Below the pieces are notes generated by a model, which was not told the origin of the DNA, did no database searches, and saw only the letters and a list, made by a program, of their open reading frames with translations. DNA of 60,107 nucleotides from Xanthobacteraceae bacterium. Lineage in GTDB: Bacteria; Pseudomonadota; Alphaproteobacteria; Rhizobiales; Xanthobacteraceae. A program made the position numbers and the translations under genes. The DNA lies in assembly GCA_024508855.1 (NCBI GenBank), contig JANINJ010000008.1, positions 1-60,107 on the forward strand, in the 5' to 3' direction. Below are positions 10,315 to 53,090 of the stretch, in pieces. Numbering within the stretch: the first letter of the stretch is position 1; each line of letters opens with the position of its first letter.

Positions 10315-10327
10315 TACCGGCACTTGA

Positions 10328-11719: not shown

Positions 11720-11822
11720 CAGCTACATACTTCGATTAATCGTCTACCCGTCAACCTAAAAACACCAAACTATGGCGTTTTAAATTTGCCAAGGCAGAGC
11801 CATTAAAACACAGGTTCCCAAC

Positions 11823-15041: not shown

Positions 15042-15433
15042 ATTCTATCTTTCTATTGCGGCCGGTCCGGATGGAATGAAAGTCGACGGGAGGCGGTTCC
15101 ACGATCGGGTCCAGGGCGGCTGAATACAGCGTCTTCATCATCACGGGAATTGGCACGACGCTATTATGGGACCGATAAGTCGGGATTAGATGGCGGTAAA
15201 ATGACGGTCGCGTGAGACGGACGCCCGTCAGCTCGCTCGATCTACGCAATACTTATTATTTTACCTTTATTTTGCGGCGTTAGGACGAAGATAACCTCCC
15301 AAAACGGTGAATTGAGGCGGCTTTTGCCTCTCGGCGCTGAACCCATATATGGCAGGAGGCGACCAACGGTTGTGGGACGCAATCGCTGTTTTCCGCGTTT
15401 AATGCCTGCATGCCTGAATGAGCAAGGTGGAAC
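15042..15433. promoter_or_regulatory. Divergent intergenic region between hpnN and ispH
   Basis: A 392-base stretch without a convincing gene. Around 15244-15275 it is notably AT-rich (ATACTTATTATTTTACC) against a GC-rich background, the best place for a promoter serving ispH-hpnH; the start-proximal part should serve hpnN. No clear operator palindrome was found. Confidence 0.45.
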
Positions 15434-37770: not shown

Positions 37771-38754
37771 ATGCCGATACCGCAACACATCTTCGATCCG
37801 CCCTTCAACGTCATCCGCAGCAGCCACGCCGTCCTTGACGTTACGGATCTCAAGGCCAGCACCGCATTCTACGAAAACATCATCGGGCTCCATGTCGAGG
37901 ACAGCGACGGCGATGTCGTCTATCTTCGCGGCTCCGAGGAACACCAGCACCATTCGCTGGTGTTGCGCAAGGCGGCGGTCGCGGCATGCAACCGCCTCGG
38001 CTTCAAGGTCGGCAACGAACAGGACCTCGACAAGGCCGCTGCGTTCTTCGCCACCAACAAGATCGAGCATGCGTTCGCGGAAGTGCCATTCCAGGGCCGC
38101 ACGCTGCAATTCAACGATCCGTTCGGCTACCGGATCGAACTTTATGCGAAGATGGAAAAGCGGCCGCAACTGCTGCGCCGCTACGATCTATACAAGGGTT
38201 GCCATCCGCAGCGGCTCGATCATTTCAACGTCTTCGCCGCGGAGGTTCAGGACACCGTCGATTTCTATGCCCGGCTCGGTTTCCGCCTCACCGAATACGC
38301 CGAGGAAGACGGCCCGAATGGACGCATCGCGGCTGCATGGATGCACCGCAAGGGCAACGTGCACGACTTCGCCATCACCAACGGCAAGGGCCCGCGTCTG
38401 CATCACTTCGCCTACTGGGTGCCGACCGCGATGAACATCCTGCACCTGTGCGACGTCATGGCATCAGGCGGCTTCCTGAAGAACCTGGAGCGCGGCCCTG
38501 GCCGTCACGGCATCTCCAATGCGTTCTTCCTGTATGTCCGCGATCCAGATGGCCACCGGCTGGAAATCTACACCAGCGACTACAACACCATGGACCACGA
38601 TCACGAACCGCTGCGCTGGTCGCTACGCGATCCGCGACGGCAGACGTTGTGGGGCGCACCGGCGCCGCGCTCCTGGTTCGAGGAAGGTTCGCCGTTCACT
38701 GGCCAACAGGTTCGGGAGCCGCAATTCAAGGCCGACGTGATCATCGCCGACTGA
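37771..38754 (+). CDS. hpaD: 3,4-dihydroxyphenylacetate 2,3-dioxygenase HpaD
   Basis: A 327-residue extradiol ring-cleaving dioxygenase of the vicinal-oxygen-chelate type with two tandem VOC modules (about 15-130 and 147-270). The metal triad is visible in the C-terminal module: H151 ('LDHFNVF'), H211 or H212 ('RLHHFAYW') and E265 ('HRLEIYTSD'). It opens the ring of homoprotocatechuate between C2 and C3. Length and C-terminal tail fit the homoprotocatechuate enzymes. Confidence 0.92.
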   Translation: MPIPQHIFDPPFNVIRSSHAVLDVTDLKASTAFYENIIGLHVEDSDGDVVYLRGSEEHQHHSLVLRKAAVAACNRLGFKVGNEQDLDKAAAFFATNKIEHAFAEVPFQGRTLQFNDPFGYRIELYAKMEKRPQLLRRYDLYKGCHPQRLDHFNVFAAEVQDTVDFYARLGFRLTEYAEEDGPNGRIAAAWMHRKGNVHDFAITNGKGPRLHHFAYWVPTAMNILHLCDVMASGGFLKNLERGPGRHGISNAFFLYVRDPDGHRLEIYTSDYNTMDHDHEPLRWSLRDPRRQTLWGAPAPRSWFEEGSPFTGQQVREPQFKADVIIAD

Positions 38755-38809
38755 CCGAACGGTGTGCGATTGCCGCACACTGCCAAGCGCCTTCATACAA
38801 CCGGAATCC

Positions 38810-39688
38810 ATGATGATGACCTTTCCCCGCCTCGCAACATTCTCGACCGGCAATGGCACCTCTTACGGTGCCGTGGTCGATGGCGGGATCGTCGATCTCT
38901 CCGCCCGACATGGGAAAACGTGGCCCACGCTGCGCGAGGTCATTGCCGATCAAGCGCTGACGCGGATCGCAGACGACGCGGCGGGACGCGCGCCCGACAT
39001 CGCGCTCGATGCAATCACCTGGCAGCCGCCGATCCCCGCGCCCGAGAAAATCATCTGCATCGGGGTCAACTATCCGGATCGGAACGCCGAGTACAAGGAC
39101 GGTCAGGACGCGCCGAAATATCCCAGCATGTTCATGCGAACGCCGCGCTCCTTCGTCGGCCACGAGACGCCGCTGGTACGCCCGCGCGCATCGACGCAAC
39201 TCGACTATGAGGGCGAAGTGGTGATCGTGATCGGCAAGACCGGCCGCCACATCGCGGAGCGCGACGCGCTCGATCACATCGCCGCGCTGACGCTCTGCAA
39301 CGAAGGCACCATTCGCGACTGGGTACGCCATGCCAAGTTCAACGTTACCCAGGGCAAGAATTTCGACGGCACCGGCAGCCTCGGGCCGTGGCTCGTTCCT
39401 TACACCGACGAAGCCCAGATCGCCGACATCGCACTGACCACCCGTGTCAATGGCGAGACCCGCCAGAGCGACCGCACCAGCCGGATGATGTTCAGCTTTC
39501 GCTACATCATCAACTATATCTCGACCTTCACCACGCTGGTGCCCGGCGACGTCATCGTCACAGGCACGCCCACCGGCGCCGGCGCACGGTTCGACCCGCC
39601 GCGATTCCTGAAACCCGGCGACGTCATCGAGGTGGAAGCCGACGGCATCGGCTTGCTGCGCAACGGCGTGGTGGACGAGGCAGTGTAA
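38810..39688 (+). CDS. hpaG: Fumarylacetoacetate hydrolase-family protein, probable HpaG
   Basis: A 292-residue FAH-superfamily enzyme: an N-terminal 60-residue cap, then 'KIICIGVNYPDRNAEYK', 'LDYEGEVVIVIGKTGRHI' (metal-binding acids), 'TQGKNFDGTGSLGPWLV' and 'GDVIVTGTPTGAGARFDPP'. In this operon the missing decarboxylation of 5-oxo-pent-3-ene-1,2,5-tricarboxylate is the likely reaction (HpaG), although single-domain FAH proteins also include acylpyruvases and other hydrolases. Three ATGs occur in a row at the start (38810, 38813, 38816). Last gene of the plus-strand operon, ending at a palindromic repeat. Confidence 0.78.
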   Translation: MMMTFPRLATFSTGNGTSYGAVVDGGIVDLSARHGKTWPTLREVIADQALTRIADDAAGRAPDIALDAITWQPPIPAPEKIICIGVNYPDRNAEYKDGQDAPKYPSMFMRTPRSFVGHETPLVRPRASTQLDYEGEVVIVIGKTGRHIAERDALDHIAALTLCNEGTIRDWVRHAKFNVTQGKNFDGTGSLGPWLVPYTDEAQIADIALTTRVNGETRQSDRTSRMMFSFRYIINYISTFTTLVPGDVIVTGTPTGAGARFDPPRFLKPGDVIEVEADGIGLLRNGVVDEAV

Positions 39689-39833: not shown

Positions 39834-41057
39834 TCAGGTCTTCGGCGGAGGATCGAGCCGCGTGCAGCCGCCATCGGCGATCGGCCGCATGATGTCTTCC
39901 GCCTTGACCCTGCCCTTGACCTTCAGCAGATCCCACTCGCTCTTCACTTCCTTCGGCCCCTTGGCTTCCACCAGGAACATATCGTTCATGAGGCGGCCAT
40001 CCTCGCGAAGCCGCGCGCCGGGAGCGAAGAAATCGTCGACCGGCATCGCTTTCATCTTGCGCATGACGGTAAGGCCATCGTTGTCGTTCGCAGCCTCCAC
40101 CGCGCGCAGATAGTGCCGCACGGCGCTGTAGACACCGGCCTGCGCGTGGGTCGGCATCTTGCCGCCGTGCTTGGCCGCGAAACGCTTGGCGAAAGCCCGG
40201 CTGGCGTCGTCCCTGTCCCAGTAATAGCCAGCCAGATATTGCACGCCCTGCATGGCCTCAGGCCCGAGCGAATGCACTGACGTGAGATAGAAGATCAGCA
40301 CGGCCAGCTTCTGCTTGCCTTCACCGATCTGGAATTCACGCGCCTGCTTGATATTGGTGACGGTGTCGCCTGAGGCGTTGGCGAGCGCGATGATCTTCGC
40401 ACCGGAAGACTGCGCCTGTAGCAGGAACGACGAAAAATCCATGGTGCCGACTGGATGTTTCACCGAACCCAGTACCTTGCCGCCTGCCGCCGTCACGACC
40501 TTGGAGACTTCGGCCTGCATCGCGTGGCCGAAAGCATAATCGGCGGTGATAAAGAACCAGGTGTCGCCACCCTGCTGCACGATCGACTTCGCCATGCCCT
40601 GTGCCAGCGAATAGGTGTCGTACAGCCACATCGCGCCGGTGGGCGAACAGGCTTTGCCGAAAACGTCGGCAGTAGCCGAGCCGACATGCACGACGATCTT
40701 GCCGCGTTCGCGTGCGATATCCTGCACTGCCAGCGAGATCGCTGAGTTGCCAATGTCGAAGATCGCATCGACGCCCTGCTGATCGTAAAGGCTGCGCGCC
40801 AGATTGACGCCGACGTCGGTCTTGTTCTGATGGTCCGGTGCCAGCAGCACGACTGGCTGTCCCCTCACCTTGCCGCCGGCGTCATCGATTGCAAGCTGTG
40901 CGGCGGCAACGCTGCCGACACCGCCGGCGTCGGAAAATACCGAGCTCTTGTCGTTCAGGACAGCAATGGTGACGGGCTTGGTAATGGGCTCGGCAGATGC
41001 GCTTGCCATCAATCCGGCGGCAACGAGAGCAACAGCCAACGCGGCGCGGTGTATCAT
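39834..41057 (-). CDS. Periplasmic branched-chain-amino-acid-type ABC substrate-binding protein
   Basis: A 407-residue periplasmic-binding protein (type 1 fold, LivK-like). A signal peptide covers 1-22 ('ASASA'). The first lobe opens 'VTIAVLNDKSSVFSDAGG' and has 'AAQLAIDDAGGKVRGQPVVL'. It is a second binding protein downstream of the Liv/amidase operon but behind a strong terminator, so it has its own promoter. Members bind amino acids, amides, aromatic acids and short acids; the ligand is not predictable here. Confidence 0.9.
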   Translation of the reverse strand: MIHRAALAVALVAAGLMASASAEPITKPVTIAVLNDKSSVFSDAGGVGSVAAAQLAIDDAGGKVRGQPVVLLAPDHQNKTDVGVNLARSLYDQQGVDAIFDIGNSAISLAVQDIARERGKIVVHVGSATADVFGKACSPTGAMWLYDTYSLAQGMAKSIVQQGGDTWFFITADYAFGHAMQAEVSKVVTAAGGKVLGSVKHPVGTMDFSSFLLQAQSSGAKIIALANASGDTVTNIKQAREFQIGEGKQKLAVLIFYLTSVHSLGPEAMQGVQYLAGYYWDRDDASRAFAKRFAAKHGGKMPTHAQAGVYSAVRHYLRAVEAANDNDGLTVMRKMKAMPVDDFFAPGARLREDGRLMNDMFLVEAKGPKEVKSEWDLLKVKGRVKAEDIMRPIADGGCTRLDPPPKT

Positions 41058-41158
41058 TTTTCCTCGCTATTATTTTATTTGTAATCGCAGGTTACTCAAC
41101 GCTCGCCGCATTGACCAGTTGGTTTTGCCACAATCCGCAGTCGATATGTCGCAAAAAA

Positions 41159-41197
41159 CCGCGCCGCGAAATATCGTATAGGATATTCGCGGCGCGG
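41159..41197 (-). terminator. Strong intrinsic terminator of the Liv-amidase-AtuA operon
   Basis: A long GC-rich stem (16 pairs with a single bulged base, 6-base loop) followed on the minus strand by TTTTTT. It lies just after the stop of the last amidase and separates this operon from the second substrate-binding protein. Confidence 0.93.
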
Positions 41198-41227: not shown

Positions 41228-42583
41228 TCAGCTTCGAACCAGGGACTCGATACCCGCCGCAAGTTCGAAGATGCGACGATCCGACCCGCCCGCACCCGCG
41301 AGCATCAGACCGACCGGCGCATCGCCCTCGCGATGGATCGGTAGCGAAATCGCACAACCGTCCATGGTGTTGATGAGGCTGCAATTGCGCAGCGAGAGGA
41401 TGTTGGCCTTGCCATAGGCGGCATCGTCATCGACGAGGTCCGCGATGCGCGGCGGCGTGATTGCGACGGTCGGCATCACCAGCGCGTCGTACGGCGCGAT
41501 ACGCTCCTCGAAACCGGCGATGATCGCACGGCGATCGTTGAGCAGGTCGACATAGTCGGCCGCGCTCTGGCTTTCGCCGCGTCGAATGCGCACGATCACG
41601 CGGGGATCGTACTCGTTTGCCTTCTTCGCAATCAGGGCGCGATGCCACGCCCAGGCTTCCGCCGAGGAGAATCCGCCCTTGGCATTCAGCGTTCCGACAG
41701 CATCGAACTCCGGCATCGCGATACGTTCGATGATCGCGCCCTGTGCCGACAGTTTGGACAGCGCGCGCTCGAACGCCTCCACGACAGCGCGTTCGAGGTC
41801 GTCGAGCGCCACCGTGGTCGGCACCGCCAGCCGCATGCCCTTGACGGGCCGCGGCGTGACCGGCGCGATCGGCTCGTCGGCATGCACGGCATCCAGCGTG
41901 ACACAGCAGGCAACGCTACGCGCAAGCGGGCCATAGCTGTCGAGCGTGAAGGAGAGCGGCACGCCGCCGTCGAGCGGGATACGCCACGCCGATGGCTTGA
42001 AGCCGACGATGCCGCAGTAAGCTGCCGGAATGCGGCACGACCCGCCGGTGTCGGTGCCGAGCGCGCCGTGCGCCATGCCGTCGGTGACGGAGACCGCTGC
42101 ACCTGACGACGATCCGCCCGGCACATGGCCGACGTCACGTTGCCACGGGCTCTTCGGCGTGCCGTAATGCGGATTGAGGCCGAGGCCGGAATAAGCGAAC
42201 TCCACCATGTTGGTGCGCCCGATCAGCACGAAGCCCGCGCGCCGCAGCCGGGCCACTACCGGCGCGTCTGCCGTTGCGGGGGAAGCATCGCGCAGCGCCA
42301 GCGAGCCCGCGCGCGACACCTGGCCCTTGATATCGAACAGGTCCTTGATCGAAATCGGAATACCGGCGAAACGCGACGGCGCCGCATTGGCCTTGCGCAG
42401 CTTGTCCATTGCTTCCGCGGCAGCGATTGCGCCCTCGCTATCGACATGAATGAAGGTACGCTGGCCCTCGCCATTCTTGTCGTCGATCCTTGCAAGGCAT
42501 TCGTCGACCAGCGCGCGGGCGCTGGTGCGCCCCGCATCGAGATCGGCGGCGAGAGAGTCCAGTGTTCGGGTATCAGGCATCAT
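41228..42583 (-). CDS. Amidase-signature enzyme (second of the operon)
   Basis: A 451-residue amidase-signature hydrolase. The catalytic triad can be placed: K80 ('PISIKDLFD'), the cis-serine in G156-G-S-S-S-G161 and the nucleophile S182 ('TDTGGSCRIP'). Members hydrolyse carboxamides, ureides, acylureas or act in Gln-tRNA transamidation; a GatA role is unlikely given the operon. It is the last gene of the Liv-amidase-AtuA run, 32 bases after the small AtuA-like gene, and ahead of a strong terminator. It is only distantly similar to the other amidase here. Confidence 0.9.
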   Translation of the reverse strand: MMPDTRTLDSLAADLDAGRTSARALVDECLARIDDKNGEGQRTFIHVDSEGAIAAAEAMDKLRKANAAPSRFAGIPISIKDLFDIKGQVSRAGSLALRDASPATADAPVVARLRRAGFVLIGRTNMVEFAYSGLGLNPHYGTPKSPWQRDVGHVPGGSSSGAAVSVTDGMAHGALGTDTGGSCRIPAAYCGIVGFKPSAWRIPLDGGVPLSFTLDSYGPLARSVACCVTLDAVHADEPIAPVTPRPVKGMRLAVPTTVALDDLERAVVEAFERALSKLSAQGAIIERIAMPEFDAVGTLNAKGGFSSAEAWAWHRALIAKKANEYDPRVIVRIRRGESQSAADYVDLLNDRRAIIAGFEERIAPYDALVMPTVAITPPRIADLVDDDAAYGKANILSLRNCSLINTMDGCAISLPIHREGDAPVGLMLAGAGGSDRRIFELAAGIESLVRS

Positions 42584-42615
42584 CTATTCCGTTTCCAGCT
42601 TCGGACGAGGTCGAG

Positions 42616-42957
42616 TCAGGGTTTCCGACCGTCATCATCGTCCGGCGCGATGTCGATTTCCAGATCGAGCAACGCAGAGCTGAGCGCTTTACCATGCGCG
42701 TCGAGCGCAAGCGAGCGGGTGACGCCGCCGCCAAGCGTCTGGTCCATCACGAAGTTCAACGCCGAGATATTCGGCAGTTCGTAGCGGACCACCTCGCCGC
42801 CGACGAGTTCGGCGAAATGCGCCTTGACCCGTGCACTAGTGACCTGCGCTAACAGCGCCGGATAGTGCCTCGCGTCGTAGGCAATCACCGAGATATTTGA
42901 GGTATTGCCCTTGTCGCCGGTGCGGGAATGGGCGATTTCGCGCAGCTTCACCATCAC
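42616..42957 (-). CDS. Small AtuA-like (ferredoxin-fold type) protein
   Basis: A 113-residue protein with 'LREIAHSRTGDKGNTSNISV' at its start and 'VRYELPNISALNFVMDQTLG' in the middle, the pattern of the small domain normally fused to the C-terminus of AtuA proteins. Here it is a separate gene. The start is GTG at 42957 overlapping the AtuA stop (GTGATG), or the ATG three bases on; both mean translational coupling with the upstream AtuA gene. Function unknown. Confidence 0.85.
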   Translation of the reverse strand: MMVKLREIAHSRTGDKGNTSNISVIAYDARHYPALLAQVTSARVKAHFAELVGGEVVRYELPNISALNFVMDQTLGGGVTRSLALDAHGKALSSALLDLEIDIAPDDDDGRKP

Positions 42958-44291
42958 GCCTCCACGAAACGCACCGATGGCGTCACCAATTCACGCGGCA
43001 ACAGCACCGATGCGACCGCAACAACATCGCGCGCGGATTTGAACGCGCCGCCGCCACCCGCCGGACCGTTGGTATAAAGCGTTTCGACCTCATTGCCGAT
43101 GCGCACCGCTTCCACCAGGTTTTCGGTGCGGCCGGTGACCCGCACCCGCACCTCGTACGGATCGTGTCCTGCCGAAAGCCGCTCGCCGTGCAGGGAATCG
43201 ACGCCGATCAGGTCGAAACGCAATTCGCTGGCGCGCACGCCGGTGAATTGCAACCGCTCGCGCACGATCTCCAGCGCCAGCCTGCCCCGCGCCACCGCTC
43301 CCGGACCGGCGTAGGAGATTTGCCCCTCGCCGATGTAGCTGTCGACATAGCCGACCGAGACCTTCAGCGTCTCCGGCCGCGCTGTGCCCCCTCCACCGGC
43401 GACCCGCACGCGATCCGGCCCGATTTCCTCGACACTCACCTGCGAGAAATCCGCGACCACGTCCGGCTGCAGATACTTTCTCGGATCGTGCACTTCATAG
43501 AGCAACTGTTCCTTGCAGGTGCGTGCAGTCACGGCACCGCCCGAGCCCGCAACCTTGGTCACCACCAGCGAGCCGTCCTCACTCACCTCGCCGATCGGAA
43601 AGCCGAGGCGCGCCAGCCCTTCGACATCCTTGTAGCCGGGGTCTGCGAAGTAACCGCCGGTGATCTGGCCGGCGCATTCGAGCAGATGGCCGGCCACCGT
43701 ACCACGACCGAGTATCTCCCAGTCGTCCATCGCCCAGCCGAATGCGTCGATCATCGGCGCGAGAAACAGCGCAGGATCGGACGCGCGGCCGGTGATGACG
43801 ACATCGGCGCCGCCCCGTAAGGCTCGCGCGATCGGCTCGGCGCCCAGATAGGCGTTGGCGGAAACGATGCGATTGCCGAGCGTCTTGATGGTGCCGTCGA
43901 TCTCGATCAGCGGCAAATCGCGGTTCTTGCAGGCATCGAGCACATCGTCGCCGACGACGGCGGCGATCTTGAGCTTCGGCAATCCCATCGACCGGGCGAT
44001 CTCCGCGATCTTGCGCGCACCCGCCCACGGGTTTGCCGCGCCCATATTGGTGACGATCTTAATGCCCTTGGCTGCGCAGGCCGGCAGCACCGCGTGCATC
44101 CGCGCCTCCAGCAGCGGATCGAAGCCGCCGTCGGGATCTTTCAGCCGCGCCTGTTGCGCCAGCGCGACGGTGCGCTCGCCAAGGCATTCGAACACCAGAT
44201 ACTGGATGTCGCCCTTTTCGGCGAGCTCCAGCGCGGGCTCGATGCGATCGCCCGAATATCCCGCGCCGGAACCGATCCTGATGCTGCGCAT
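42954..44291 (-). CDS. AtuA/DUF1446-family protein
   Basis: A 445-residue protein of the acyclic-terpene-utilisation AtuA family (DUF1446): 'IRIGSGAGYSGDRIEPALEL' at the N-terminus, 'IKIVTNMGAANPWAGARKIA', 'VVITGRASDPALFLAPMIDA' and 'GGAVTARTCKEQLLYEVHDP'. AtuA was named from the citronellol/geraniol degradation cluster of Pseudomonas, but its reaction is not established. None of the other Atu genes (geranyl-CoA carboxylase etc.) are present here, so terpene use is not supported. It starts 3 bases after the first amidase and overlaps the small AtuA-like gene. Confidence 0.87.
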   Translation of the reverse strand: MRSIRIGSGAGYSGDRIEPALELAEKGDIQYLVFECLGERTVALAQQARLKDPDGGFDPLLEARMHAVLPACAAKGIKIVTNMGAANPWAGARKIAEIARSMGLPKLKIAAVVGDDVLDACKNRDLPLIEIDGTIKTLGNRIVSANAYLGAEPIARALRGGADVVITGRASDPALFLAPMIDAFGWAMDDWEILGRGTVAGHLLECAGQITGGYFADPGYKDVEGLARLGFPIGEVSEDGSLVVTKVAGSGGAVTARTCKEQLLYEVHDPRKYLQPDVVADFSQVSVEEIGPDRVRVAGGGGTARPETLKVSVGYVDSYIGEGQISYAGPGAVARGRLALEIVRERLQFTGVRASELRFDLIGVDSLHGERLSAGHDPYEVRVRVTGRTENLVEAVRIGNEVETLYTNGPAGGGGAFKSARDVVAVASVLLPRELVTPSVRFVEA

Positions 44292-44294
44292 CGT

Positions 44295-45689
44295 CTAAGC
44301 CGTGCCTTCCAGCGCCGGCGCGCGGCGGTGCCAGTCCGTGACGGCCTGATAGTTTCGCCCGATACGCAACGCCATCTGCTCGGCGTTCGGGGCGCAGATA
44401 ATCTGCAGCGATGTCGGCAAACCTGTTGGCGAGAATCCGTTCGGCACCGCGAGGGCGCATCGTCCGAGGAAATTGGCCATGCGCGTAAAGTGCGAAGGGA
44501 TGATCTTTTCCTTCTCGGCGGTGGCCAGTGGATGTGCCGTCATCGGCGTCGTCGGCGTCAGCAACGCGTCGACGCCCGCAAGCGCCGCCGTGGCCTTGGC
44601 GCAGATCGTCTCGCGCTCGCGCATCAGGCGCAGATAATCCGTCACCGACATGGTGCGCGCGACCGCAAAACGAGCCCGCACGTCCTCGTCGACCGGCGCT
44701 GCCGGATCGTCGATGATCTCCTTGATGAAGGAATAGCCTTCGGCCGCGATCAGTCGACCCGACAGCGTTCCGAAGTCGGAAAAACGGAACGGCAGCTTGA
44801 TCGATACGATCTCCGCGCCCATGTCGGCGAGTTGCGCCAGCGATTGATCGTAGGCCGCGAGTACGGCGGGTTCGACGACATCGCGCTCACCATCGGGCAA
44901 CCGCGCCAGACGCAAACCCTTGACGTCGCGCGGCGCGGGACCGGACAGGATTGCATCCATCGCCGCCGCGCCGCCGCCCCGCATCGCCTCGAACAGAATG
45001 GCGGCGTCGGTCGCGCTGCGCGCCAGCGGGCCCGGCGTATCCAGCGTCGTGCTCAGCGGCAGAATGCCATCGGTCGCAATCTGCCCGGCCGTGGTCTTCA
45101 GCCCCGTGACGCCACACAACGCCGACGGCGTGCGCACCGACCCGCCGGTATCGGTACCGACCGCCCACGGCACCAGCCGCGCCGCCACCGCCACGCCGGA
45201 ACCGCTGCTCGAACCGCCGGGCGTGCGCGGCTCGCGCATGTCCCACGGATTGCGCGGCGCGCCCATGTGCTGATTGGTGCCCCATGAACCGAACGCAAAT
45301 TCGACGGTGTGGGTCTTGCCGGCGATGGTCATGCCCTCGGCGATCAGGCGGCGCGCCAGCGAGCCGGTCGAAGGCGAGATGCGGTCGGCCCAGACTTTCG
45401 AGCCACCGGTCGTCACCTTGCCTTCGATGTCGACGAGGTCCTTCAGTCCGAACGGAATGCCGTGCAGCGGACCGAGCGCGTAGCCCGCGCTACGTGCAAG
45501 ATCGGCAGCCTTCGCCGCCGCCCGGGATTCCTCCGGATAGGTGTCGATGAAGGCATGCAGCGCATCGTTATATTTCCCGATGCGATTGAGGCACGCGTCA
45601 GTAATTTCCACCGCCGAAACGCGGCGCGCGGCAAGCATTTCCGCCAATTCCGCAACCGTAAGCGATGTCAAATCGTTCGAAGCGGTCAT
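44295..45689 (-). CDS. Amidase-signature enzyme (first of the operon)
   Basis: A 464-residue amidase-signature hydrolase with K83 ('PFGLKDLVDIEG'), the cis-serine loop G158-G-S-S-S-G163 and the nucleophile S184 ('TDTGGSVRTP'). The real start is ATG 45689 with AAGGA ten bases upstream; the frame is open for 228 more codons antiparallel-free through livF, but that part is frame-shifted livF sequence. It lies 35 bases after livF and 3 bases before AtuA, so it belongs to the transporter operon and probably acts on the imported compound. Confidence 0.92.
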   Translation of the reverse strand: MTASNDLTSLTVAELAEMLAARRVSAVEITDACLNRIGKYNDALHAFIDTYPEESRAAAKAADLARSAGYALGPLHGIPFGLKDLVDIEGKVTTGGSKVWADRISPSTGSLARRLIAEGMTIAGKTHTVEFAFGSWGTNQHMGAPRNPWDMREPRTPGGSSSGSGVAVAARLVPWAVGTDTGGSVRTPSALCGVTGLKTTAGQIATDGILPLSTTLDTPGPLARSATDAAILFEAMRGGGAAAMDAILSGPAPRDVKGLRLARLPDGERDVVEPAVLAAYDQSLAQLADMGAEIVSIKLPFRFSDFGTLSGRLIAAEGYSFIKEIIDDPAAPVDEDVRARFAVARTMSVTDYLRLMRERETICAKATAALAGVDALLTPTTPMTAHPLATAEKEKIIPSHFTRMANFLGRCALAVPNGFSPTGLPTSLQIICAPNAEQMALRIGRNYQAVTDWHRRAPALEGTA

Positions 45690-45724
45690 CGGAAGACATC
45701 CTTTTTGTTTTTGGCGATCGGGCG

Positions 45725-46444
45725 TTACTTCAATCCGAAGTAGGCCCGACGCAGGGCTTCGTTGTCGGTCATTTCGGCGACGGTGCCGGAGAAGCGGATG
45801 CGACCGCCCTCGAGCACAAACACGCGGGTGGCGACTTCGAGGAAGCCGATGTTCTGCTCGGCGATCAGGAGCGACAGCCCCCGCCCCTGCAGATCGCTCA
45901 GCACGCGAATGACTTCCTTGACGAACAACGGCGACAACCCGGCCGAAGGTTCGTCCATTACCAGAAGCTTCGGCTCCGCCGCCAGCGCCTTGGCAATGCC
46001 GAGCATCTTGCGCTGCCCCCCGGACAGGCTCGATGCCGGATTGCGGCGCTTGTCGCGCAACACCGGAAAGATGCCGTAGAGTTCTTCCGCACGCGCGCCC
46101 GGATTGGCGTGGCCCAGCGCCTGCGCGCCGACCTTGAGATTTTCTTCGATCGACAGATCCGGAAAGACCGCCAGTTCGGACATGTAGGTCATGCCGAGCC
46201 GCATCCGGTCGCTCGAGCGCATCCGCGTCACATCGCGGCCGGCAAGATGGAAGCTGCCGTTGCGCGTCTCGATCAGCCCGACCAGCGATTTCAGGAACGT
46301 GGTCTTGCCCGCGCCGTTGGCGCCGAGCAGCAGCACGGTCTCGCCCGCCTTCACGTCGAGGTTCACGCCCCACAGCACCTGCATGGTGCCGTAGCCGGCA
46401 TCCACGCCTTTGACGTCGAGTAGCGATGTTGCGTCAGGCGGCAT
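45725..46444 (-). CDS. livF: Branched-chain-amino-acid-type ABC transporter ATPase LivF
   Basis: A 239-residue ABC ATPase. Walker A is G41-A-N-G-A-G-K-T48, the ABC signature is 'SSLSGGQRKML', and Walker B 'LLVMDEPSAGL' follows; the length and 'YGTMQVLWGVNLDVKAGE' start are LivF-like. It pairs with LivG to energise import through LivH/LivM. The gene overlaps livG by 11 bases. Confidence 0.93.
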   Translation of the reverse strand: MPPDATSLLDVKGVDAGYGTMQVLWGVNLDVKAGETVLLLGANGAGKTTFLKSLVGLIETRNGSFHLAGRDVTRMRSSDRMRLGMTYMSELAVFPDLSIEENLKVGAQALGHANPGARAEELYGIFPVLRDKRRNPASSLSGGQRKMLGIAKALAAEPKLLVMDEPSAGLSPLFVKEVIRVLSDLQGRGLSLLIAEQNIGFLEVATRVFVLEGGRIRFSGTVAEMTDNEALRRAYFGLK

Positions 46445-47165
46445 GTTCGCCTCCCAGGAACACCTCGATCACTTCCGGCACCTTCACCGCCACCGCAAGC
46501 GTACCCTCGAAAATCTCCTTGCCGGCGTTCATGACGATGACGCGATCGGTGATCTGCTCGATGAAGCCCATCAGATGTTCGACCACGATGATGGCCAGAC
46601 CGCCCTTCGCCAAAGCCTTGATCCGTTCCGCGATCCAGTCGAGCTCGGTCGGATTTAGACCGGCCGCGAGTTCGTCGAGCAACAGCAGCCGCGGCTGTGT
46701 CGCCAGCGCCCGCACCAGATCGAGCATCTTCTGCTGCACGTTGGTCAGATCATGTGCCGGACGGTCGGCGACATCCGCTAGCCGATATTCCTCCAGCAGG
46801 TCGGACATCGAGGGGCCGGAGGCGCCGGCACGACCGTACGTCCGCGCGACCTCGAGGTTCTGCCGCACGGTCAGCGACATGAACGGCTTCGGCACCTGAA
46901 AGGTCCGATTGATCCCGCGATGTACCAGCTTGTGCGAGGCCATGCCGCCGACCGACGTACCGTCGAACAACACTTCGCCGCGATCCGGCGCATAGAGCCC
47001 GGAGATCACGTTGATCGCCGTGGTCTTGCCCGAACCGTTGGGACCGACCAGCCCGAGGATTTCGCCGGAAGAGACGTGGAAGGTCAGGCCGTCCAGTGCA
47101 TGGAAGCCGCCGAACCGCTTCAGCAGGTCGTTGACCCTGAGGATGGGCACGTTGTCAGGGGACAT
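46434..47165 (-). CDS. livG: Branched-chain-amino-acid-type ABC transporter ATPase LivG
   Basis: A 243-residue ABC ATPase with Walker A G41-P-N-G-S-G-K-T48 and the LivG-specific 'INRTFQVPKPFMSLTVRQNL' Q-loop region. The signature motif is unusual: 'DLTNVQQKMLDLVRAL' where LSGGQ/LSYGQ is expected, and Walker B reads 'LLLLDELAAGLNP' with L after the Asp-Glu. In an asymmetric pair such a site may be slow or non-hydrolytic. It overlaps livM by 11 bases and livF by 11 bases. Confidence 0.92.
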   Translation of the reverse strand: MSPDNVPILRVNDLLKRFGGFHALDGLTFHVSSGEILGLVGPNGSGKTTAINVISGLYAPDRGEVLFDGTSVGGMASHKLVHRGINRTFQVPKPFMSLTVRQNLEVARTYGRAGASGPSMSDLLEEYRLADVADRPAHDLTNVQQKMLDLVRALATQPRLLLLDELAAGLNPTELDWIAERIKALAKGGLAIIVVEHLMGFIEQITDRVIVMNAGKEIFEGTLAVAVKVPEVIEVFLGGEHAA

Positions 47166-48075
47166 TCCACCCCCGTCGCGTTGCCAACGAGACCAGCCCG
47201 GCCGGCAGGAACAGCACCAGTCCCATGATCAGCAGCCCATAGATGAGCTGGAAATATTGCGGCGTGGTGAAGCCGATCAGGTTGTAGATGCCGTAGAGGA
47301 TGATGACGCCGATCAGCGGGCCGCAGATGGTCGCGACGCCGCCGAACAGCGCGAACACGATGGCGAAGATGCTGAAGTCCGCGCTGAACACATTGTCGGG
47401 ATAGAACACCGAAACGTACCAGGCGAAGACACCACCGGCGAGCCCGGCAACCAGCGCCGAAGCCAGCCACGCGATGGTGCGCATCTTCACGACATTGACG
47501 CCGGACATCGAGGCGCTGAACGAATCCTCACGCACGGCCTGCAGTGCAAGACCGAAGCTCGAATTCTTCAGATAGACCACGATACCGAGCGTCAGCGCGA
47601 GGATTAGAACGGCACCTGCATAGGCCCATGTCGGATTGAACGTGCCGTTGAGCGCGACGCCGTAAGGCCCCTTGGTGATCGACTCCAGCGCCGGGTTGGC
47701 GATCAGGTGCAGCACGGCCAGCGCGGCCGCAAGATTGGCGATCGAGAAGTAGGCGCCCGCCAGCCGCAGCAGCGGTGTGAGGATCAGCCCCAGAACCACC
47801 GCGACAAGGCCGCCAGCCAGAACCGCAACCGGCGCAGGCGAATTGAGGTGCATCACCATCAACGCGAAGCCATAAGCGCCAGCGCCGAAGAAACCGACAT
47901 AGCCGAACGGGAGATAGCCGGTAAAGCCGTAAATGATGTTCACACCCTGCGCGAGGATGAAGAAGATCACGAAATTGAACAGCAACAGGTGATTGTTGTA
48001 GACGGACGGCAGCACCGCCAGCACGACCAGCAGCGGCACCGCGATGAAGAGATAATGGCGCAACGTATCAGGCAA
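47155..48075 (-). CDS. livM: Branched-chain-amino-acid-type ABC permease LivM
   Basis: A 306-residue permease with about nine membrane helices and the conserved cytoplasmic loop 'LALQAVREDSFSASMSGVNV' typical of LivM. The start is read as TTG at 48075, because AAGGAG lies eight bases upstream; a GTG at 48102 is less well placed. It overlaps livH by 8 bases and livG by 11. Confidence 0.9.
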   Translation of the reverse strand: MPDTLRHYLFIAVPLLVVLAVLPSVYNNHLLLFNFVIFFILAQGVNIIYGFTGYLPFGYVGFFGAGAYGFALMVMHLNSPAPVAVLAGGLVAVVLGLILTPLLRLAGAYFSIANLAAALAVLHLIANPALESITKGPYGVALNGTFNPTWAYAGAVLILALTLGIVVYLKNSSFGLALQAVREDSFSASMSGVNVVKMRTIAWLASALVAGLAGGVFAWYVSVFYPDNVFSADFSIFAIVFALFGGVATICGPLIGVIILYGIYNLIGFTTPQYFQLIYGLLIMGLVLFLPAGLVSLATRRGWNVP

Positions 48076-48988
48076 CGCGCACTCTCCTTCCCAGCAGGCC
48101 ACTCGGCCGCAGCAGCAGGATCGCGATCAGGAGCACGTAGGGCAACAGGTCGGCCCACGAGCTGAGATAGGTTTGCACCAGCATATAGGAGACACCATAG
48201 ACGACGCCGCCCAGCGCCGTGCCGAGCGGATTGCCGAGCGATCCAAGCACCACGACGACGAACGAGGTGACGGTGGCGTCGATACCGAACGCTGGCGTGA
48301 ACGAACCAAACATGAAGGGGGCAAACACGCCGGCCACTGCCGCGAGCCCCAGGCCGATGCCGAATGCCGCGGCAGAAACGCGATCGACGTTGATGCCAGT
48401 CGCAATCGCCTCCTCGCGGCGGGACATCACCGCGCGCGTCAGGGTGCCGAGCCGGGTCCGATAGAGATAGAGGTAGACGCAGCCGATGGCGATGACGCTC
48501 ACCGTCGCCGCCACCACCCACGACGCCGGAAACGACAGGCCGAAGATCTGGAACGGCCCGTTGGTCGCCTCGCCGCCGAATATTGCGGCTCGCACACCCG
48601 AGAGCGAGTTCGCCAGTTCGCGGCTCGGGATCGAGCGCTCGCTGGTGCCGAAGACGATAGTGGTCAACGCCTCGATCACCTGGGAGAATCCGAAGAACAG
48701 GATGAAGGACAGCATTTCCGGATCGCGGGCACGCTGCAGTCGCGGCACCAGAATCCAGTACAGCAGCAGACCCGCCACGCAGAACAGCGCGAATGCGATC
48801 GGCACGCCGACCAGCGGATCGAGCCCCGCAGCGGTGTAGACGCCGAACGCGACGAACGCGCCCAGCATCAGGAAGTCGCCATGCGCAAGGTTGACGATGC
48901 GCATGACGCCGAACACGAGATTGAGGCCGATGCCGACCAGACTGAAATAGAGTCCGAATAGCACACCGGCGATCAGCGGATACAGCAT
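48068..48988 (-). CDS. livH: Branched-chain-amino-acid-type ABC permease LivH
   Basis: A 306-residue permease with about eight helices. It opens with 'GLYFSLVGIGLNLVFGVMRI' and 'NLAHGDFLMLGAF', and the cytoplasmic loop 'GTLTRAVMSRREEAIATGIN' is LivH-like. A GGAG site precedes the ATG. It starts 43 bases after the substrate-binding protein gene, so one operon is likely. Confidence 0.93.
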   Translation of the reverse strand: MLYPLIAGVLFGLYFSLVGIGLNLVFGVMRIVNLAHGDFLMLGAFVAFGVYTAAGLDPLVGVPIAFALFCVAGLLLYWILVPRLQRARDPEMLSFILFFGFSQVIEALTTIVFGTSERSIPSRELANSLSGVRAAIFGGEATNGPFQIFGLSFPASWVVAATVSVIAIGCVYLYLYRTRLGTLTRAVMSRREEAIATGINVDRVSAAAFGIGLGLAAVAGVFAPFMFGSFTPAFGIDATVTSFVVVVLGSLGNPLGTALGGVVYGVSYMLVQTYLSSWADLLPYVLLIAILLLRPSGLLGRRVRVA

Positions 48989-49031
48989 CAGAATGAGCTC
49001 CGATGCTGATCCGTTATTGCGACGACGTCGT

Positions 49032-50279
49032 TCACGGCCGCGGGTAGACCGGCTTGCCGGTCGCCGTCTCGTGCGGATAGATCGACACGAACTTGATGTG
49101 GCCGTGCTCGTTGAGCTCGAGCTGTCCGAGCGGCGTCAGTTCGCCGATCTGGCCGCCCATCTCGTCGAGCGCGAAGGTGCCGTCGAGCGTCTTGAGGTTG
49201 CCGGACAGGCTGAATACGGCTTTCCGCAACTCCATCTGGTCGAGGCTGGTGGCGACCGAAAGCGTCTTCTCGATCACGAGCGCGGTGGTGTAGCCCGCAA
49301 CGGAGTTGAAGCCGAACTCGATCTTGCCGTCCTTGTATTTCTCGTCCCAGGCTTTACGGAAATCGGCCATCTTCATTCCGAAATTGACCGGATATTCCAG
49401 TTCCTGCGGCGGCACGTAGGTGAAGACGTGCTGCAATCCCTTGGCGCCGACATTCTTTTCCAGCAATTCGGTTTCAAGGCCCGGATAGATGCAGAACAGC
49501 ATCTTGAACTTGACGCCGACGTCCTGGACGTTGCGCAGGAACGCGATGTCATTCGGCGCATAGCCGAGATGGATCACGGCGTCGGGCTGCTTCGCCTGGA
49601 TGTTGTTGATGATGACGGTGTAGTTCGTGGTTTCGGTCGGAACGCCCTGATCGTAGACGATCTCGATCGGCGCGCCGGATTCCTTGATGAACTTCCGCAC
49701 CGCATTGGCCTGGGTGCCGGTAAATTCGTTGGTCGAATAAAGAAGCGCGACCTTCTTGATCCCGAGACCGGGGCCGTCATGGGTAATGAAGTCTGCAACC
49801 GGCTTCGGCCAGATCGTCGACACCGGGTCGGCCATCAGCGCGATATAGGGATTGTCCTTGGAGAAGAAGCTCGCGCCCGTTCCGGTCTGGTCGAACAGGA
49901 ACATCTTGTGGTCGCGCGCGATGGTCACCGCCGGAGCGGTCAGCACCGAGCCGGAATCGGCCACCAGCAGATCGACCTTGTCCTGCGTCACGAGTTGATT
50001 GTAGAGCGTCGCGGCGGTCGCGGTGTTGCTCTGGTCGTCATAGGCGACGAGCTTGATCGGAATTTTCTTGTCGAATGCCTTCACATAGACGCCGCCCTCG
50101 GCGTTTTTTTGATCGACCCAGAGCTTGATGGCGCTGTGAACCGGCATCGAGATCGAGGCATAACGGCCGGACGAAGCATAAAGGGTGCCGATCTTGATTT
50201 CGGAGGGTGCGTCGGCGGCATAAGCCTGCGTCGCCAACATCATCATGGCCGCCAGTGCGGCCGATGCCTTCCCTATCAT
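49032..50279 (-). CDS. ABC substrate-binding protein of the Liv-amidase operon
   Basis: A 415-residue periplasmic-binding protein of the LivK type. A signal peptide covers 1-22 ('ATQAYA'). The mature protein opens 'EIKIGTLYASSGRYASISMP' and continues 'WVDQKNAEGGVYVKAFDKKI'. It is the first gene of the transporter operon and is divergent from the LysR gene with a 16-bp palindrome between. A GAGG ribosome-binding site precedes the ATG. The ligand probably contains an amide, judged only from the two amidases downstream. Confidence 0.92.
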   Translation of the reverse strand: MIGKASAALAAMMMLATQAYAADAPSEIKIGTLYASSGRYASISMPVHSAIKLWVDQKNAEGGVYVKAFDKKIPIKLVAYDDQSNTATAATLYNQLVTQDKVDLLVADSGSVLTAPAVTIARDHKMFLFDQTGTGASFFSKDNPYIALMADPVSTIWPKPVADFITHDGPGLGIKKVALLYSTNEFTGTQANAVRKFIKESGAPIEIVYDQGVPTETTNYTVIINNIQAKQPDAVIHLGYAPNDIAFLRNVQDVGVKFKMLFCIYPGLETELLEKNVGAKGLQHVFTYVPPQELEYPVNFGMKMADFRKAWDEKYKDGKIEFGFNSVAGYTTALVIEKTLSVATSLDQMELRKAVFSLSGNLKTLDGTFALDEMGGQIGELTPLGQLELNEHGHIKFVSIYPHETATGKPVYPRP

Positions 50280-50362
50280 CGCGATTCCTCTCTTGTTGGA
50301 AGCCTTTTGTGTTTTACGGGTCCCTTTTGACGCGTCTGGCGCGGCAAATCAACTATACGACT

Positions 50363-50378
50363 ATTGAAATATTTCAAT
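50363..50378. promoter_or_regulatory. Perfect 16-bp palindrome, probable LysR operator
   Basis: ATTGAAATATTTCAAT is a perfect palindrome that includes the T-N11-A pattern of LysR-type sites (T at 50365, A at 50377). It lies 20 bases before the LysR start and 84 bases before the divergent substrate-binding protein start, so it can serve both autoregulation and activation of the Liv operon. Confidence 0.8.
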
Positions 50379-50398
50379 CTCAGTAATAGAGATGCTCT

Positions 50399-51349
50399 AT
50401 GGACGTCAATCTCAGGCAGATGCGCTCCTTCGTTGCCGTGGCGCGCCTCGGCAATTTCACGCGCGCCGCAAAATTCCTTCACGTCTCCCAGCCGACGCTG
50501 ACCATTCACATCAAGCAACTGGAAGAAACGCTCGGCCTGAAACTGTTCGACCGCAATCCCCGCGCCGTAAATCTGACGCGGATGGGTCGCGATCTGCTTC
50601 CGACGTTCGAGCGCACGCTGCAGGATCTCGATTCGATGCTGCACAATGCCAAGAATGTCTCCACCGCCCAGCGTGGCGTCATCCGCATCTCGGTGCTGCC
50701 TTCGCTCGCGGCCAGCGTGCTTCCCGATATGATCCGCCAATTCCGGAAACAGAATCCGGGCGCGTCATTCGCAGTGAAGGATTGCGTTGCGGGGTCGCTG
50801 CTCGCCCTGATCCGCTCCGACGAAGTCGATCTCGGTCTGACCGGCGGGGTGATCGACTTTCCGGATATCGACATCCTGCTCCGGGCCAGTGACGAGATGA
50901 ACGTCATCTATCCAGAAGGCCATCCGATCGGAAAAATCAGTCGCATCAGCGCCGAGCGCCTGGCGCAATTTCCAATCATCATGATGGACATGAACACCAG
51001 CGTTCGCGCGATCACCGATCAGGCGTTCAGCAAGGCACGGCTGATGCCGAAGCCCGTCGCCGAAGTGACTTACATGATGACGGCGCTCGGCATGGTGCGC
51101 GCCGGCCTCGGCATCGCCATCCTGCCCGCCTCGGCCCGCGAAGTCGCCGCGGTACCCAACCTGCGGACGAAACGCATCAACGATCCGAATTTTTCGCGCC
51201 AGATCGCGCTCATCAAGAAAAAGGATCGCACGCTGCCGCCGCTGAGCAAGGCTTTCGCCGATCATCTCTTGCAAACCGGCATCACGTTCCGGAACATCGG
51301 AAATCGCGACCGGGATGCCGTGCCGATTACCGCCGAAGAATCCGCCTGA
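50399..51349 (+). CDS. LysR-family transcriptional regulator
   Basis: A 316-residue LysR regulator. The N-terminal winged helix (1-60: 'MRSFVAVARLGNFTRAAKFL', 'VSQPTLTIHIKQLEETLGLK') is followed by a linker helix and a periplasmic-binding-like effector domain (about 90-300). Divergent from the Liv-amidase operon with a LysR-type palindrome between, so it is the likely regulator of that operon, probably sensing the imported compound or its product. A terminator follows it. Confidence 0.93.
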   Translation: MDVNLRQMRSFVAVARLGNFTRAAKFLHVSQPTLTIHIKQLEETLGLKLFDRNPRAVNLTRMGRDLLPTFERTLQDLDSMLHNAKNVSTAQRGVIRISVLPSLAASVLPDMIRQFRKQNPGASFAVKDCVAGSLLALIRSDEVDLGLTGGVIDFPDIDILLRASDEMNVIYPEGHPIGKISRISAERLAQFPIIMMDMNTSVRAITDQAFSKARLMPKPVAEVTYMMTALGMVRAGLGIAILPASAREVAAVPNLRTKRINDPNFSRQIALIKKKDRTLPPLSKAFADHLLQTGITFRNIGNRDRDAVPITAEESA

Positions 51350-51512: not shown

Positions 51513-51926
51513 ATGGCCGAAGCCCAGCGCGCGCGCCCGAAACCGACACCTGAAACGCAACACTTCTGGGACGGCACACAGGCCGGCGAACTGCGTCTGC
51601 AGCGCTGCGACGCGTGTGCGCATGTGTATTTCCCGCCGCGGCCGTTCTGCCCCTCTTGCGCCTCGCGCAAGGTGTCGGCGTTTCCCGCCAGCGGCAAGGC
51701 GACGCTCTACAGCTACGTGATCAATCACCGGCCCGCCGCGCCGGGCTTCACGCCGCCCTACGCCATCGCCGTGGTCGAGCTTGAGGAAGGCCCGCGGATG
51801 ATGACCAACATCATCGATTGTCCGCAGACGCCGGAGGCGCTCGAACTCGACATGAAGCTCGAGGTCGCGTTCGACAAGCTCGACGACAAGATCACCCTTC
51901 CCTTGTTCCGCCCGGCGAAAGGGTAA
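51513..51926 (+). CDS. Zn-ribbon/OB-fold (DUF35) acyl-CoA-associated protein
   Basis: A 137-residue protein with the rubredoxin-like zinc ribbon 'CDACAHVYFPPRPFCPSC' followed by an OB-fold ('KATLYSYVINHRPAAPGFTP', 'PYAIAVVELEEGPRMMTNI'). Such proteins bind next to SCP-x-type thiolases and are thought to act as acyl-CoA-binding partners or channels. The thiolase gene follows after 5 bases. The ATG at 51513 has GGGAG upstream. Confidence 0.92.
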   Translation: MAEAQRARPKPTPETQHFWDGTQAGELRLQRCDACAHVYFPPRPFCPSCASRKVSAFPASGKATLYSYVINHRPAAPGFTPPYAIAVVELEEGPRMMTNIIDCPQTPEALELDMKLEVAFDKLDDKITLPLFRPAKG

Positions 51927-51931
51927 TCGAC

Positions 51932-53071
51932 ATGCGCAGGAATCAAGTCGCGGTGGTAGGCGCCGCGGAAACGACCAAGCTCGGCGTCATTCCCGATATG
52001 TCGCAGATCCAGCTTCACGCGGATGCGGCGCTCAACGCCATCGCCGACGCCGGTTTGAAGCTGTCGGATATCGACGGCATCGCCACCGCGGTCGAAACGC
52101 CACAGCAGATCGCGCACTACCTCGGCATCACGCCCACCTGGGTGGATGGCACCTCGGTCGGCGGCTGCTCGTTCATGCTGCATGTTCGTCACGCAGCGGC
52201 TGCAATCGAAGCGGGTTTGTGCAAGACGGTGCTGATCACCCACGCCGAGAGCGGCAAGTCGATGATCGGCAAGCTGCCGCGCTCGATTCCCGCCGACAGC
52301 CTGCAGGGCCAGTTCGAGGCGCCGTTCGGCGTCTACGGGCCGCCGAGCATGTTCCCGATCCCGGTGCTGCGCTACATGAAGACCCACGGCATCACCCACG
52401 AGCAAATCGCATCGGTCGCGGTAGTGCAGCGTGAATGGGCGGCGAAGAATCCGCGCGCGATGATGAAAGACCCGATCACGGTCGCGGACGTACTCAACTC
52501 GCGGATGATCGCCTATCCGTTCCGGCTCCTGCAGTGCTGCCTCGTCACCGACGGTGGCGGTGCGCTGATCCTGACCTCGGCCGACCGCGCCAAGGACTTT
52601 CCGAAGAAGCCGGTCTACATCCTCGGCACCGGCGAGAGCGTCGAGACGCCGATGGTCAGTCAGATGGAGACGTTCAACTCCTCGCGCGCCTTCAAGGTGG
52701 CGGGACCGACGGCGTTCAGGGAAGCCGGCATCACGCATAAAGATGTCGATCACCTGATGATCTACGACGCTTTCGCGCATCTGCCGCTGTTTGGACTCGG
52801 CGATCTCGGCTTCATGCCGCATGAAGAAACCGGCAAGTTCATCGCCGACGGCAACACCCGTCCCGGCGGCAAGCTGCCGCTCAACACCAACGGCGGCGGC
52901 CTCAGCTACATGCATTCGGGCATGTACGGCATGTATGCGCTGCAGGAGAGCGTGCGGCAGATGCGCGGCATCGCACCGGCGCAGGTCGAGGGCGCGAAAA
53001 TATCGGTGTGCCACGGCGTCGGCGGCATGTTCGCGGCGTCCGGCACCATCATCTTCACCAACGAGAAATAA
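51932..53071 (+). CDS. SCP-x-type thiolase/acetyl-CoA acetyltransferase family protein
   Basis: A 379-residue thiolase-superfamily protein of the lipid-transfer (SCP-x) branch. It shows 'VAVVGAAETTKLGVIPD', 'DGTSVGGCSFMLHVRHAAAA' with the likely nucleophile Cys, 'NTNGGGLSYMHSGMYGMYAL' and 'VCHGVGGMFAASGTIIF'. These proteins perform or assist C-C cleavage of beta-ketoacyl-CoA, often of branched or sterol-like chains, with the DUF35 partner encoded just before. The frame is open from 51818 inside the OB-fold gene; ATG 51932 is the natural start. Confidence 0.9.
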   Translation: MRRNQVAVVGAAETTKLGVIPDMSQIQLHADAALNAIADAGLKLSDIDGIATAVETPQQIAHYLGITPTWVDGTSVGGCSFMLHVRHAAAAIEAGLCKTVLITHAESGKSMIGKLPRSIPADSLQGQFEAPFGVYGPPSMFPIPVLRYMKTHGITHEQIASVAVVQREWAAKNPRAMMKDPITVADVLNSRMIAYPFRLLQCCLVTDGGGALILTSADRAKDFPKKPVYILGTGESVETPMVSQMETFNSSRAFKVAGPTAFREAGITHKDVDHLMIYDAFAHLPLFGLGDLGFMPHEETGKFIADGNTRPGGKLPLNTNGGGLSYMHSGMYGMYALQESVRQMRGIAPAQVEGAKISVCHGVGGMFAASGTIIFTNEK

Positions 53072-53090
53072 CGAGAGACACGAGAGCATC

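Follow-up and report, generated by a model that had tools for sequence, protein, structure and literature searches.

Known relatives of the AtuA operon

Two described systems are closest to the subject of this report, an operon with a gene for an AtuA protein (PF07287) at positions 41228 to 50279 of a 60,107-nucleotide stretch of DNA from a Xanthobacteraceae bacterium related to Bradyrhizobium (contig JANINJ010000008.1; this whole stretch is called the window). The first is the citramalate lyase CmlAB of E. coli O157 (ECs_0760/ECs_0759; PDB entries 9erq and 9evf), which likewise has a PF07287 large chain and a small chain of about 105 residues. A 2015 paper on the E. coli cluster gives pyruvate and acetate as the products of the clostridial citramalate lyase, states that citramalate cleavage was undetected for the E. 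coli cluster, and remarks on a neighbouring DUF1446 gene of unknown function (PMC4682846). The second system is the AtuA of terpene degradation, which is assigned in print (PMC4847356) as an acetate lyase with 3-hydroxy-3-isohexenylglutaryl-CoA as substrate. In the proposed reaction acetate is likewise freed from a tertiary 3-hydroxy acid, and the Thauera protein is one chain of 615 residues (PMC4847356), in contrast to the two chains in the window. If CmlAB yields pyruvate and acetate as the clostridial enzyme does, the release of acetate from tertiary hydroxy acids is common to both named members. The terpene protein has the same family name as the AtuA of the window, and we take it to be a PF07287 protein.

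The operon of the window differs from both systems in its gene content. The genes of CmlAB adjoin glutamate mutase genes in E. coli, whereas the pair in the window adjoins two amidase genes and the genes of a Liv-type importer. The proposal developed below is that an amide would be imported, opened by the amidases and passed on to an acetate-releasing lyase, all within a catabolic operon under the control of a LysR-type regulator. We give this chain as a whole a probability of about 0.5.

AtuA and the small protein resemble the two subunits of citramalate lyase

Two adjoining genes of the operon were compared with the solved enzyme:

42954 to 44291, minus strand: AtuA, putative large subunit of a citramalate-lyase-like enzyme (PF07287, 522.6 bits; fold match 9evf_A)
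42616 to 42954, minus strand: putative small subunit (AtuA_ferredoxin; PF23544, 130 bits; fold match 9evf_B)

AtuA has 445 residues and the small protein 112, and the start codon ATG of the latter overlaps the stop codon of the former by one base. The two proteins were folded separately, with alignments that comprised the window and 26 relatives as input. The predicted local distance difference test score (pLDDT) was 88.6 for the AtuA model and 90.2 for the small-protein model. For AtuA, the sole PDB match at an E value of 0.001 or below was 9evf_A (E 3.4e-25, template modelling (TM) score 0.67), and for the small protein the sole match at the same threshold was 9evf_B (E 1.8e-4, TM 0.61/0.66). 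The entry has the title "Citramalate lyase - ADP - pyruvate complex". Both models thus matched the corresponding chains of CmlAB best, and the two separate fold searches point to both chains of one enzyme.

The large subunit was also connected with CmlA by its sequence. A PDB sequence search with AtuA had 9erq/9evf, "Citramalate lyase, subunit A (cmlA)", as its best match (E 1.6e-4), followed by 9qkx with an E value of 0.028, and a profile search gave a single row, 9erq_A (E 4.1e-6). Alignment with hhalign resulted in a probability of 94.7 and an identity of 32% across 143 columns. Across 45 AtuA proteins, conservation reached at least 95% in 55 of the 445 columns. CmlA has the identical residue in 23 of those 55, including R169, D172, E205, C206, K246, Y265, E266, and K310.

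Taken together, AtuA and the small protein very probably constitute a CmlAB-type lyase. As its two subunits, they most likely free acetate from a tertiary beta-hydroxy acid, probably with the use of ATP. For CmlAB, the methylaspartate pathway would be the source of citramalate, and neither PF07476 nor PF06368, which represent this pathway, had a match in the whole genome of the window. The pair is therefore regarded as a lyase of the citramalate kind, not as citramalate lyase proper, and the formation of citramalate from glutamate was rejected as a source of its substrate.

An earlier note on this DNA, made from the letters alone, had held that AtuA must do something else here than in terpene degradation, as the terpene partners are missing. 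The absence was confirmed: geranyl-CoA carboxylase, hydratase, and dehydrogenase of the Atu pathway were not detected by Pfam among the ten genes from 41228 to 51349, to which the search was confined, and the terpene pathway was rejected because of the gene content of the operon. The conclusion drawn from it was not supported, since the match to citramalate lyase and the assignment of the terpene enzyme (PMC4847356) make the chemistry look the same, i.e., that of an acetate-releasing lyase, with another substrate.

Organization of the operon

The further features of the locus are as follows:

50399 to 51349, plus strand: LysR-type regulator, divergent from the operon (PF00126 and PF03466)
50363 to 50378, no strand: 16-base perfect palindrome ATTGAAATATTTCAAT, candidate LysR operator (palindrome search and comparison with upstream regions of relatives)
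49032 to 50279, minus strand: periplasmic binding protein of the Liv-type importer (PF13458, Peripla_BP_6, 163 bits)
48068 to 48988, minus strand: LivH permease (PF02653)
47155 to 48063, minus strand: LivM permease, start uncertain (PF02653 and gene caller)
46434 to 47165, minus strand: LivG ATPase (PF00005)
45725 to 46444, minus strand: LivF ATPase (PF00005)
44295 to 45689, minus strand: amidase A, amidase signature family (PF01425, 295.5 bits)
41228 to 42583, minus strand: amidase B, NCBIfam PRK07056 subfamily (PF01425, 267.7 bits; NF005460, 705.9 bits, cut-off 447)
41152 to 41197, minus strand: intrinsic terminator (hairpin and T-run)

The minus-strand genes from 50279 to 41228 are tightly packed in the order binding protein, LivHMGF, amidase A, AtuA, small protein, amidase B. 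According to the coordinates, neighbouring genes overlap by at most 11 bases or are at most 43 bases apart. The start of LivM could be a TTG near 48063 or a GTG at 48102, and the latter would result in a 35-base overlap with LivH. The importer set is complete within the one operon, with a Peripla_BP_6 binding protein, two BPD_transp_2 permeases, and two ATPases (HAAT/Liv-type). The lyase genes are enclosed by the amidase genes, amidase A ending 3 bases ahead of them and amidase B starting 32 bases after them.

The two amidases share an identity of 36.6%. Lys-Ser-Ser motifs, which we take to be the catalytic motif of the amidase signature family, are readable in both translations. Among the NCBIfam matches listed (25 of 26 for each amidase), the single cut-off that was exceeded was that of PRK07056, by amidase B. 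The pathways for malonamate, biuret, barbiturate, and maleimide, in which amidase-signature enzymes are used, were weighed as candidates and rejected; to our knowledge, none of these pathways includes an AtuA. The genome contains 13 amidase matches, one PF07287 match (AtuA itself), and no match to the CitMHS citrate:proton symporter model TIGR00784.

The binding-protein and LysR genes are separated by 119 bases, in which the palindrome ATTGAAATATTTCAAT is located. It is identical in two relatives (L053 and L064; L numbers designate the loci retrieved for comparison) and degenerate in a third (L052), and it was not found in the remaining seven upstream regions examined. At the other end, the terminator hairpin (41159 to 41197, followed by the T-run) has a free energy of -30 kcal/mol and a z-score of -5.75, and none of 200 shuffled sequences was equally stable. 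A simple scan did not report this terminator, and promoter-like sites were not in excess (1 versus 2.5 expected). The importer, the two amidases, AtuA and the small protein, the overlaps and short gaps throughout, and the strong terminator were thus all found about where the earlier note had placed them.

Several flanking genes were also recorded. On the plus strand beyond LysR (51513 to 54008), genes for a Zn-ribbon/OB-fold protein, a thiolase-like protein, and a short-chain dehydrogenase/reductase (SDR) follow, with a low-score resemblance to BbsA/BbsB. Each of the three is kept beside the AtuA locus in 13 to 15 of the compared loci, and in one region (L132) they are divergent from an amidase B-DUF2848 pair, without AtuA. 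An acyl-CoA synthetase gene is located at 58319 to 59863. Past the terminator, a second Liv-type binding protein (39834 to 41057) probably belongs to a different system. It is adjoined by a homoprotocatechuate-type cluster (37771 to 39685), in which HpaD is above its cut-off and an HpaG-like protein is below it.

The lyase pair has varied neighbours in its relatives

The comparison set consisted of the window, the best 80 of 588 confirmed candidate loci from a scan of a genome collection, and 20 further loci from the order. For the latter, matches were present in 77 genomes, and 20 of these genomes were selected, mostly among the strongest. Two of these 101 rows were dropped because no AtuA was called (L067, L187), and 99 rows, 95 of them distinct, remained for the tree. 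The fractions given below apply to near relatives, not to the whole AtuA family. Another set of 20 loci, partly from the same genomes as the 80, was kept out of the tree. Genes of the relatives were called with a codon-usage caller, and the labels for adjacency can miss uncalled genes. A gene was counted as a neighbour of AtuA within 1.5 kb for CitMHS and amidases, 2.5 kb for CoA-transferase and TctC, and 6 kb for LivH.

First, the two-gene form of AtuA was inspected, which the earlier note had treated as a peculiarity of this operon ("split AtuA"). It turned out to be ordinary and is the rule in this subfamily: the small gene adjoins AtuA in 94 of the 99 rows, and a fused form, with the small protein as C-terminal domain of AtuA, was found in three more distant loci (L021, L022, L029). 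In the five rows without a called small gene, it was present by open reading frame search (L098), located behind an inserted gene (L081), or the contig edge was reached (L129); the last two are L092 and L117. In L092, AtuA is followed by a GMC oxidoreductase of 515 residues, and in L117 by a gene of similar length (516), with no small gene called in either. The insertion in L081 (Bradyrhizobium, 9900 to 15400) is a tannase-family esterase gene between AtuA and the small protein.

Next, the neighbours of the pair were compared. In 54 of the 99 rows a CitMHS citrate:proton symporter gene stands beside the pair, in place of the Liv genes; a representative scored 390 bits against the TIGR00784 cut-off of 259.7. 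These LysR-CitMHS-AtuA-small clusters occur, e.g., in Burkholderiaceae, Rhodoplanes, Azospirillum, and Methylobacterium. They contain the same AtuA subfamily (65-75% identical), the same small protein, and a mostly divergent LysR gene, and they differ from the window in having the symporter where the window has the importer and the amidases. No description of these clusters was found in the literature searched. LivH was found near AtuA in 12 rows, an amidase in 16 (83 had none), an acetate/3-oxoacid CoA-transferase in 8, and TctC in 6. CitMHS, TctC, and CoA-transferase are neighbours that would be expected for a lyase with an imported carboxylate as substrate and with acetate or a 3-oxo acid as product.

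The CoA-transferase genes come after the lyase genes in all eight rows that have them, as if the product were activated. This bears on the alternative that AtuA, like the terpene enzyme, uses a CoA thioester. The terpene substrate was assigned as a CoA ester (PMC4847356), and the thiolase-like, OB-fold, and SDR genes just past LysR as well as the acyl-CoA synthetase gene would suit such a substrate. The operon itself, however, has neither a CoA ligase nor a CoA-transferase, and the solved relative acts, going by its name, on free citramalate. A thioester substrate is thus judged quite improbable.

Other rows contained further types of uptake and hydrolysis genes. A TRAP permease with an NMT1-like binding protein (L172), peptide-type binding proteins (L182, L183), and a BCCT carrier (L188) were found beside the pair, and the small protein is followed by a tannase-family esterase in L175. 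An M20 peptidase is a neighbour in L113. Two loci of Azospirillum (L093, L101) have no amidases but a different Liv importer directly after the small protein; its LivH, LivG, and LivF are 29-38% identical to those of the window. Neighbours of no evident link in other loci included an amine oxidase, a mechanosensitive channel, and a GMC oxidoreductase. In L082, a 3-hydroxybutyrate-oligomer hydrolase gene comes directly after the small protein. An AtuA 70% identical to that of the window was found on a contig labelled Chloroflexi (L127), by mis-binning or transfer.

The varied importers and hydrolases make the pair look like a portable lyase. A tentative reading, to which we give somewhat less than even odds, is that the pair is a widespread lyase that releases acetate with the use of ATP and independently of CoA, and that it has exchangeable front-ends for uptake (CitMHS, TctC, TRAP, Liv, peptide-type binding proteins) and hydrolysis (amidases, tannase-like esterases, 3-hydroxybutyrate-oligomer hydrolase). 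The window would then be the amide-fed version, a catabolic route without description in the literature searched.

The amidase association is confined to one clade

On the tree of the 99 AtuA proteins, the amidase label required one change and marked one clade around Bradyrhizobium, and the association thus arose once. The flanking rows are three Rhodoplanes loci with CitMHS and one contig labelled Chloroflexi (SH-like approximate likelihood ratio test, SH-aLRT, 81). The entire block, including both amidases, was present in five of the seven genomes of the window's genus that were sampled, and this conservation of gene order is not chance. In one of the other two genomes no AtuA was found and amidase B is located at a contig edge, and the second has a distant AtuA only. 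Amidase A is also present in L053 and L064 and is missing from this place in the Bradyrhizobium loci.

Six of the 16 amidase rows, including two identical ones and one with the label Tardiphaga, have kept AtuA, the small protein, and amidase B together without Liv genes, and all six have a DUF2848 gene (PF11010). In eight rows the DUF2848 gene overlaps the end of amidase B. DUF2848 is an uncharacterised Liv-associated family, and a literature search for DUF2848/DUF4387 gave no paper; its genes were seen in L051 (13088 to 13777), L054-L059, L061, and L174, and twice in the genome of the window (L194, L195), where both adjoin Liv-type genes and none is inside the window.

The AtuA proteins of the amidase clade (16) and of the CitMHS-linked rows (54) were then compared. 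Conservation at 90% in both groups was seen for 201 columns. Three positions (38, 42, and 171) are fixed to different residues, and each is only a few residues away from a conserved motif residue. The two groups thus probably have similar lyase substrates, between which a small difference could exist. The eight residues listed above are unchanged in 16 of 16 and 54 of 54 rows, respectively. This identity argues against the alternative that AtuA acts on an amide or lactam itself, e.g., by ATP-dependent opening, with the amidases finishing the reaction. The earlier note had leaned in this direction, and the position of AtuA between two amidases as well as the ADP in the title of the solved complex, which makes nucleotide use plausible, would fit. 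The solved and assigned members of the family are C-C lyases, however, and in the closest relatives the neighbours are carboxylate carriers and amidases are missing, so that direct action on an amide is very improbable.

The opposite view was taken by surveying amidase B, for which 25 matches were found in 41 genomes and 12 regions were fetched, one of them the contig edge from the window's genus. In the 11 others no AtuA was called. In other genera of the family, amidase B adjoins Liv genes in four of the 11 regions (L139-L142) and DUF2848 in four (L132, L136, L137, L140), and, unlike the window, the regions fetched for these clusters contain neither AtuA nor the small protein. Importer and amidase also occur as a module by themselves.

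Together with the 83 AtuA rows that have no amidase called within 1.5 kb, this favours a view in which two unconnected functions adjoin each other: the importer and the amidases would scavenge amide nitrogen, and the lyase would degrade a free hydroxy acid that enters otherwise. Against it stand the location of the lyase genes between both amidases in the window's genus, the AtuA-small-amidase B-DUF2848 groups that persist without Liv genes, and the lack of a TIGR00784 symporter in the genome. We regard such a coincidence of two functions as rather unlikely.

Proposed working of the operon

The preferred reading is the connected chain from amide import to acetate release. The LysR-type regulator would control the operon. 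The Liv-type importer would take in an amide or di-amide of a tertiary beta-hydroxy acid, possibly of the citramalate, 3-hydroxy-3-methylglutarate, or citrate type. Amidases A and B would cut the amide bond or bonds and free ammonia or an amine, and their product would be the substrate of the lyase. In the last step, AtuA and the small protein, probably with the use of ATP, would split this acid to give a keto acid together with acetate or an activated form of acetate. Citrate is a possible but less likely substrate, because an aerobe can use citrate directly. Citrate-amide siderophores may also be the imported amide, and here the evidence points neither way. In evolutionary terms, the importer-amidase module seems to have displaced the citrate-type symporter beside the same lyase of most near relatives, i.e., the front-end would have been swapped.

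Several observations weigh against this proposal. AtuA and CmlA share little overall identity (17% when aligned by Foldseek), and a comparison of the small protein with CmlB by hhalign, for which the template was a single sequence, detected no sequence similarity. As the small subunits also differ in family, PF14330 (DUF4387) in CmlAB and PF23544 in the window, the link of this subunit rests on the fold. The amidases are missing near AtuA in most rows, and, since the association has a single origin, amidases and AtuA could be together through common descent and not through a functional link. The pair has very different neighbours from row to row, so its substrate may vary too, and the three fixed differences beside motif residues indicate that it may differ between clades.

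Novelty and meaning of the operon

The earlier note had regarded the combination as an undescribed uptake-and-hydrolysis unit, and this was supported within the literature searched. Neither such an operon nor CmlAB itself was found there by title or start of the abstract; every part is of a known kind, and what is new is the combination of importer, amidases, and lyase. A divided answer was obtained for its idea that the genes should stay together in relatives: the block is kept in one clade, and outside it AtuA usually stands without an amidase.

PF07287 was named after terpene utilisation, yet its near relatives examined here mostly adjoin carboxylate carriers. As each subunit, folded by itself, matches a chain of a solved two-subunit lyase, a misleadingly named family gains a testable function. 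The substrate of this operon may be a tertiary hydroxy acid in amide form.

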